The notes below the pieces were generated by a model. It searched no databases. It saw only the letters and a list, made by a program, of their open reading frames with translations, and was not told the DNA's origin. A DNA stretch of 39,644 bases. Origin: an uncultured Bacillota bacterium. Lineage in GTDB: Bacteria; Bacillota_I; Bacilli_A; RF39; UBA660. Position numbers and translations under genes: made by a program. Below are positions 12,831 to 13,395 of this stretch, piece by piece (within the stretch, counting starts at the first letter, position 1; every line of letters starts with the position of its first letter). The stretch spans positions 1-39,644 of the forward strand of contig CAMOYT010000010.1 in NCBI GenBank assembly GCA_946630315.1. The letters run 5' to 3'.

Positions 12831-12859
12831 ATTATATAATAAATACTTAAAGATGTCTA
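12831..12859 (-). promoter_or_regulatory. Promoter of the DHH-rplI-dnaB-M23-walJ-rlmH-ung operon
   Basis: -35 TAGACA (12859-12854), exact 17-bp spacer, -10 TATAAT (12836-12831) on the minus strand. The same TAGACA -35 is used for rpsF. A second AGACATCT copy lies 16 bp upstream at 12874-12867. Confidence 0.7.
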
Positions 12860-12881: not shown

Positions 12882-12910
12882 CAAAAAAAATAGTAATTGC
12901 TTACTATTTT
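12882..12910 (-). terminator. Terminator of the small RNA gene
   Basis: Ten-bp stem AAAATAGTAA/TTACTATTTT closed by a GCAA tetraloop (minus strand) and followed by eight T. It cannot belong to rpsR, which has its own terminator at 13150-13181, so it marks the end of a separate transcript. Confidence 0.85.
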
Positions 12911-12925
12911 ATTACACAATAAAAA

Positions 12926-13082
12926 GTCTAAAATGTTGAGGGGATAAAACCCAATCTTACAGGTGGGTATTTATATGTAACTTTTAGGATTCTTACTTCT
13001 AGTAAGCTTTCAACACCAGTTACCTTTTTCTAAATTCCCTTATTTTTTAATTCGGTGGTTTTAATAACTCTATCTTTTAGAC
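12926..13082 (-). ncRNA. ssrS: Candidate 6S RNA
   Basis: The stretch between rpsR and the DHH operon has no gene but has its own promoter and terminator. The RNA from about 13082 folds by hand into one long rod. Ends pair (13082-13075 with 12933-12926, 8 bp). Next come GAG/CTC (13070-13068 with 12940-12938) and AAAACC/GGTTTT (13062-13057 with 12951-12946). Then comes a large central bubble (17 bases on the 5' side, 13 on the 3' side). The apical arm has GGG/CCC, ATTTA/TAAAT, GTAACT/AGTTAC and a terminal hairpin CTTAC-TAGAA-GTAAG (13006-12992). A closing stem, a big open bubble and an apical arm with small bulges in about 160-190 nt is the 6S RNA plan, which mimics an open promoter to bind RNA polymerase. 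Other structured small RNAs are possible; I have no alignment. Confidence 0.55.
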
Positions 13083-13083
13083 A

Positions 13084-13097
13084 ATTATATTGTATCA
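13084..13097 (-). promoter_or_regulatory. Promoter of the candidate 6S RNA
   Basis: Extended -10 TGATACAAT (13097-13089) places transcription start at the G (13082) that opens the closing stem. An overlapping TATAAT (13089-13084) would start some five bases later. No clear -35. Confidence 0.5.
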
Positions 13098-13149: not shown

Positions 13150-13181
13150 TAAATAAAAAAATGTAGTTGTTACTACATTTT
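13150..13181 (-). terminator. Terminator of rpsF-ssb-rpsR
   Basis: Ten-bp stem AAAATGTAGT/ACTACATTTT with a 4-base loop and a TTTATTT tail on the minus strand, beginning at the rpsR stop codon. Confidence 0.8.
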
Positions 13182-13395
13182 ATTTTGTATAAGGCATAAG
13201 TGCAATAGCACGTGCTCTTTTGATTTGTTTAGATACTTCTCTTTGATGTAGAGCACAAGTTCCAGTTACTCTTCTTGGAACGATTTTTCCTTTTTCATTT
13301 GTATATCTTTTTAATGTTTCTGGATCTTTGTAATCAACAGTTTTTCCAGCACATAACATACATACTTTTTTCTTTCTACGATTGAATTCTGCCAT
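13180..13395 (-). CDS. rpsR: 30S ribosomal protein bS18
   Basis: Small-subunit protein that pairs with bS6 on the platform. 71 residues, usual length, with [40 protein letters not shown]. It carries the cysteine form: CMLC near residues 12-15 and C-A-L-H later, consistent with a zinc-binding S18. A GGAGG site precedes the ATG. It is third in rpsF-ssb-rpsR. Confidence 0.97.

Follow-up and report, generated by a model that had tools for sequence, protein, structure and literature searches.

An independent 6S RNA gene, one of two 6S paralogues in the same genome, almost certainly occupies positions 12926-13082 on the minus strand of the DNA analysed here, a stretch of 39,644 nt from an uncultured Bacillota bacterium (from here: the window). 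Judged by its sequence, this gene has its own promoter, a predicted start that coincides with the closing stem, a bubbled rod kept by selection, its own terminator and membership in the 6S family. With it, a second 6S RNA is well supported for uncultured gut Bacilli.

Assignment to the 6S family

The Rfam model RF00013 matched positions 12948-13056 on the minus strand with 48.3 bits, compared with a gathering cut-off of 46.4 (E 8.2e-07 for the 39.6-kb window), and was the sole Rfam match over the cut-off within the window. The initial annotation had proposed a free-standing small RNA with a 6S-like fold and had named the Rfam 6S covariance model, run on this strand, and compensating changes in relatives as the checks. 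The score over the cut-off and the compensating changes described below bear the proposal out. The margin is only 1.9 bits, and the alignment is confined to the core of the RNA (model positions 39-148), with the closing stem outside the match. A profile of 11 relatives, from which the window copy was excluded, matched 13082-12926 end to end as its sole match in the window (E 2.4e-23), and a profile made from a second type of 6S gene in the same genus, named the tcdA type after its neighbour, matched 13066-12942 (E 3.5e-16). With the clade model the score was 144 bits, the window copy being among the training sequences. Rfam matches of LPR10, mir-728 and snR83 in the stretch were rejected, as they were far below their respective cut-offs.

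Promoter, terminators and extent of the gene

The rpsR reading frame is located at 13180-13395 (minus strand), and no ORF of at least 80 aa exists between it and the DHH ORF, in line with the gene-free location between rpsR and DHH noted at the outset. An extended -10 promoter, TGaTACAAT, was recognized at 13097-13089 (minus strand), without a recognisable -35 element. Among the 12 genes found at the rpsR-DHH locus (from here: window type), TG is present in all and TACAAT in 10. Between the promoter and G13082, where the closing stem begins and transcription is predicted to start, lie 6 bases; this distance, picked as the best among 5-8 bases, recurs in 12/12 genes. Both the own extended -10 promoter and the coincidence of start and stem had been claimed from the window, and both are found again in its relatives.

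Folding predicted an intrinsic terminator at about 12883-12910 (minus strand), consisting of a 10-bp A/U hairpin followed by U8 (-7.2 kcal/mol, z -2.13). It had been described as strong: the form, a hairpin with U8, is present, but the hairpin is A/U-rich and the word strong goes too far. A terminator scan that requires G+C found no terminator for the window 6S gene, and hairpins with T runs downstream of the 6S gene were visible by eye in about 10/12 relatives. Upstream of the 6S promoter, at about 13153-13182 (minus strand), a hairpin with a T run recognized by eye presumably terminates rpsR transcription, and downstream of the 6S terminator a putative DHH operon promoter, TAGACA-17-TATAAT, is located at 12831-12859 (minus strand; 11/12). 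Promoter and terminator signals delimit a predicted transcription unit of about 150-200 nt. Because rpsR ends in its own hairpin and T run and the DHH promoter follows the 6S terminator, the RNA would constitute a separate unit. The start at 13082 is located ~17.5 kb from dnaA (30635), therefore near the presumed replication origin, and growing cells could carry the gene at high dosage.

A conserved rod with a central bubble

On the minus strand, the predicted 157-nt rod is closed by GUCUAAAA (13075-13082), which is nearly invariant in the 12 relatives, pairing with UUUUAGAC (12926-12933). Alignment and folding place a helix of AAAACC (13057-13062) and GGUUUU (12946-12951) beside the bubble. 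Provided that this helix forms, the 17/13 bubble described initially is reproduced, with a 5′ strand of 17 nt at 13056-13040, the presumed template for product RNA, and a 3′ strand of 13 nt at 12964-12952, which holds most of the invariant motif CCACCU. The upper arm (12965-13039), composed of a GGG/CCC helix and a stepped apical stem, carries most of the compensating changes. The rod (12926-13082) has a minimum free energy of -29.7 kcal/mol (z -2.09), with 3/200 shuffles as low, and z reached -3.19 when the terminator was included; by itself, the folding energy is modest.

Covariation was assessed in 12 aligned sequences from the rpsR-DHH locus, using a structure of 35 pairs (418 pair cells). 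Of these cells, 95.0% can pair, hence the hand-folded rod of the initial annotation, with paired ends, bubble and apical arm, is kept across the relatives. Changes on both sides occurred in 10 of the 35 pairs and in 22 cells, compared with shuffled means of 4.1 and 5.9, and none of 500 shuffles reached either value. The number of further pair types, 14, did not stand out from the shuffled mean of 15.5 in this 12-sequence count. When the rod was slid by 1-3 columns, 28-54% of cells were paired and 0-3 were double-changed, a comparison biased in favour of the actual structure, which was partly drawn from the same 12 sequences. The closing stem is nearly invariant and therefore says little; the covariation evidence lies in the upper arm. 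Relative to the majority state among the other sequences, the window copy has 28/35 pairs unchanged, one single-side change, five double changes that still pair and one broken pair, counted after a one-column alignment slip of the window in helix 2 had been corrected by hand. The hairpin of its 3′ bubble strand is weak (-2.5 kcal/mol versus -6.0 in the tcdA-locus copy of the same genome); the range is -7.8 to -1.1 kcal/mol for the window type and -8.9 to -3.8 for the tcdA type.

The motif CCACCU is invariant in 12/12 window-type sequences and also belongs to the Rfam 6S consensus. In 11 of the 12 window-type genes the template site reads CCGAC[T/C]A, the exception being the window copy with AAAACCACCGAATT. 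According to PMC8414754, product-RNA templates follow a rule of GG at 5/6 or 4/5 plus a neighbouring A. This neighbouring A is found in 11/12 genes of the window type and 31/32 of the tcdA type, the remaining one (L134) being a mis-anchored match. As the window template reads differently, either 13050 (AUUCGG...) or 13054 (GGUGG...) is a possible start of its product RNA, and this departure from CCGAC, the form found in its relatives, may mean that the window 6S RNA is released differently.

A second 6S RNA gene at the aspS-tcdA locus

Initial genome searches suggested a single 6S gene in this genome; a DNA query then found the copy at the tcdA locus (G000:C12:21031-21157, E 2.6e-34). This gene (L134 4495-4682) lies between aspS upstream and tcdA downstream. 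It scored 38.6 bits with the Rfam model, below the cut-off, and other members of the genus scored 32-45 bits; here, the Rfam cut-off thus misses true 6S genes, and those below it in the genus were scored clearly by the clade model. Within the fetched stretches, tcdA is located downstream of 29/32 tcdA-type 6S genes, with other ORFs in G004, G017 and G027. A protein-coding gene directly follows the tcdA-type 6S gene in most genomes of the genus (L134 4718-5545). At the same locus, a T-box-like leader (408-575; 86.3 bits versus a cut-off of 93) precedes a hisS-like gene, followed by aspS.

The promoters of the two types differ sharply. TTG at the -35 distance is found in 32/32 tcdA-type genes and in only 2/12 genes of the window type (Fisher p 2.7e-8, an optimistic value as the genomes are related), and TACAAT in 0/32 tcdA-type promoters. 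Since the tcdA-locus copy has a -35/-10 promoter and the window copy an extended -10 without -35, the conditions under which the two paralogues are expressed probably differ. Several Firmicutes have two 6S copies according to PMC8414754 and PMC8876501.

In genome G032 the upper arms (GAGTCAACCGGTGTTGAA and its partner) of the tcdA-type copy (L113) and the window-type copy (L019) are nearly identical. Overall, these two copies share 72% identity, compared with 63-69% between the copies in the eight other genomes compared. Gene conversion between the G032 paralogues is possible.

Distribution and history

The genus survey comprised 39 genomes and used the clade model R1, trained on window-type sequences; the two types were separated by score and, where fetched, by neighbouring genes. 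A 6S match of any type was obtained in 37/39 genomes, with neither type in G010 and G034. The window type occurs in 12 genomes (144-183 bits, these sequences being in the training set) and the tcdA type in 35 (76-116 bits); 10 genomes have both, two only the window type (G021, G022) and 25 only the tcdA type. Because the genomes are incomplete, the absences are weak.

Among 79 named loci of DHH relatives, the window type was found between rpsR and DHH in 11, by motif and by model; these are the same genomes as in the survey and therefore not extra evidence. At most loci lacking the 6S gene, rpsR and DHH are about 90-150 bases apart, and a few have longer gaps without 6S. About 1.2 kb takes the place of the 6S gene at four junctions (L068, L077, L079, L104), in L068 and L077 with an ORF that starts like a secreted or membrane-anchored protein. 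From these sequences, the rpsR-DHH junction looks insertion-prone. The closest DHH-protein relatives of the window (L031-L036, L047) have no 6S copy at this locus. A single gain within one clade did not hold up, as the presence of the window type requires 7 changes on the DHH tree (shuffled mean 11.4).

At the family level, 10/386 genomes matched at E <= 1e-18. Seven family matches from two other genera (g36, g208) have a window-type-like sequence placed directly before tcdA. Because these copies resemble the window type yet sit before tcdA, the window type may occupy a new place while retaining older features of sequence, a history that trees of so short an RNA are too weak to settle. No other copy of its type has a branch as long as that of the window copy (0.34-0.37). 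Type 2 as a single clade was not rejected (p-AU 0.46, with long branches in the set), and types 1 and 2 jointly as a clade apart from the other family members were weakly rejected (p-AU 0.036, again with long branches).

Other members of the class have tandem arrays, with all genes above the Rfam cut-off. Six genes, an unusual copy number, are located in L147 (G109:C113, 1955-3393, minus strand; 47.2-80.2 bits), adjoined by a T-box leader; four in L148 (G085:C1, 1836-3426, plus strand; 82-103 bits); and three in L149 (G091:C1, 1724-2499, plus strand; 58-66 bits). A literature search on tandem 6S copies, judged by its listing, pointed to work on Rickettsia.

Discussion

An RNA from this locus could also be mere rpsR read-through or the 5′ leader of the DHH operon, as all genes point in the same direction around one intergenic stretch. 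With the rpsR hairpin and T run preceding the 6S gene and a conserved promoter (12/12) after it, read-through is unlikely; the 6S terminator is followed by a separate DHH promoter, and most relatives without 6S keep the short rpsR-DHH spacing. We give this reading practically no credence. Hardly more probable is a small RNA acting in trans by pairing with ribosome-binding sites via CACCU and AUCCCCUC, the alternative mentioned in the initial annotation. Both motifs are indeed present on the 3′ side, but CCACCU is the invariant 3′-bubble motif of 6S RNAs and AUCCCCUC occurs in only 2/12 relatives, far from a conserved unpaired seed; the alternative thereby loses its basis, and a closed, covarying rod offers little free sequence.

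It is improbable, too, that the window copy is a decaying pseudogene and that the tcdA-locus copy does all the work. The longest branch of its type, the altered template site and one broken pair would fit such decay, but five double changes preserve pairing, and no damage is seen in the promoter, the start distance or the terminator. The best reading, as we infer it, is a 6S-2-like paralogue that would sequester sigma-A RNA polymerase under separate control.

According to PMC4211561 and PMC8876501, the 6S rod mimics an opened promoter, occupies the holoenzyme and is freed by product-RNA synthesis from the bubble. By analogy with the family, the window 6S rod would imitate an opened promoter and be held by sigma-A RNA polymerase instead of DNA, dampening transcription, until synthesis of a short product RNA by the polymerase on the 5′ side of the bubble sets it free. 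E. coli promoters with an extended -10 and a weak -35 have been reported as 6S-sensitive, a connection that two later studies did not find (PMC5982834). As the window promoter is of this reportedly sensitive type, an extended -10 without -35, the tcdA-type 6S RNA might repress the window 6S gene; a cross-wired pair of this kind, its members active in separate growth phases and with distinct product RNAs, is a speculative and rather unlikely scenario.

No description of this paralogue pair was found among the papers surveyed on 6S RNA in Tenericutes, with rpsR or in duplicated form, judged by titles or the beginnings of abstracts. In 10/39 genomes of one genus the two paralogues occur together, with promoters that contrast cleanly and sharply; the question why some bacteria keep two 6S RNAs thereby becomes comparable across species. 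Apart from this contrast and the point about the Rfam cut-off, the biology is ordinary.

Among known systems, Ms1 RNA of Actinobacteria is likewise a structured RNA that binds RNA polymerase (PMC9130861), but it binds the core enzyme, and the window has no Rfam match of the Ms1 kind. Legionella pneumophila, from an unrelated lineage and likened here by description rather than by sequence, has two copies, 6S1 and 6S2, which reportedly differ in growth-phase regulation (PMC4211561). With 6S/SsrS (RF00013), the window RNA shares the rod with a central bubble, CCACCU on the 3′ bubble strand, covarying stems and a score above the gathering cut-off, whereas it matches the model in the core only, its closing stem is short and A/U-rich and its template site is altered. 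Compared with 6S-1 and 6S-2 (BsrA and BsrB) of B. subtilis, the second copy here lies between rpsR and the DHH gene. The systems are alike in having two 6S paralogues at distant loci of one genome, and the neighbourhood of the tcdA type, with aspS and tcdA, presumably resembles that of B. subtilis bsrA.
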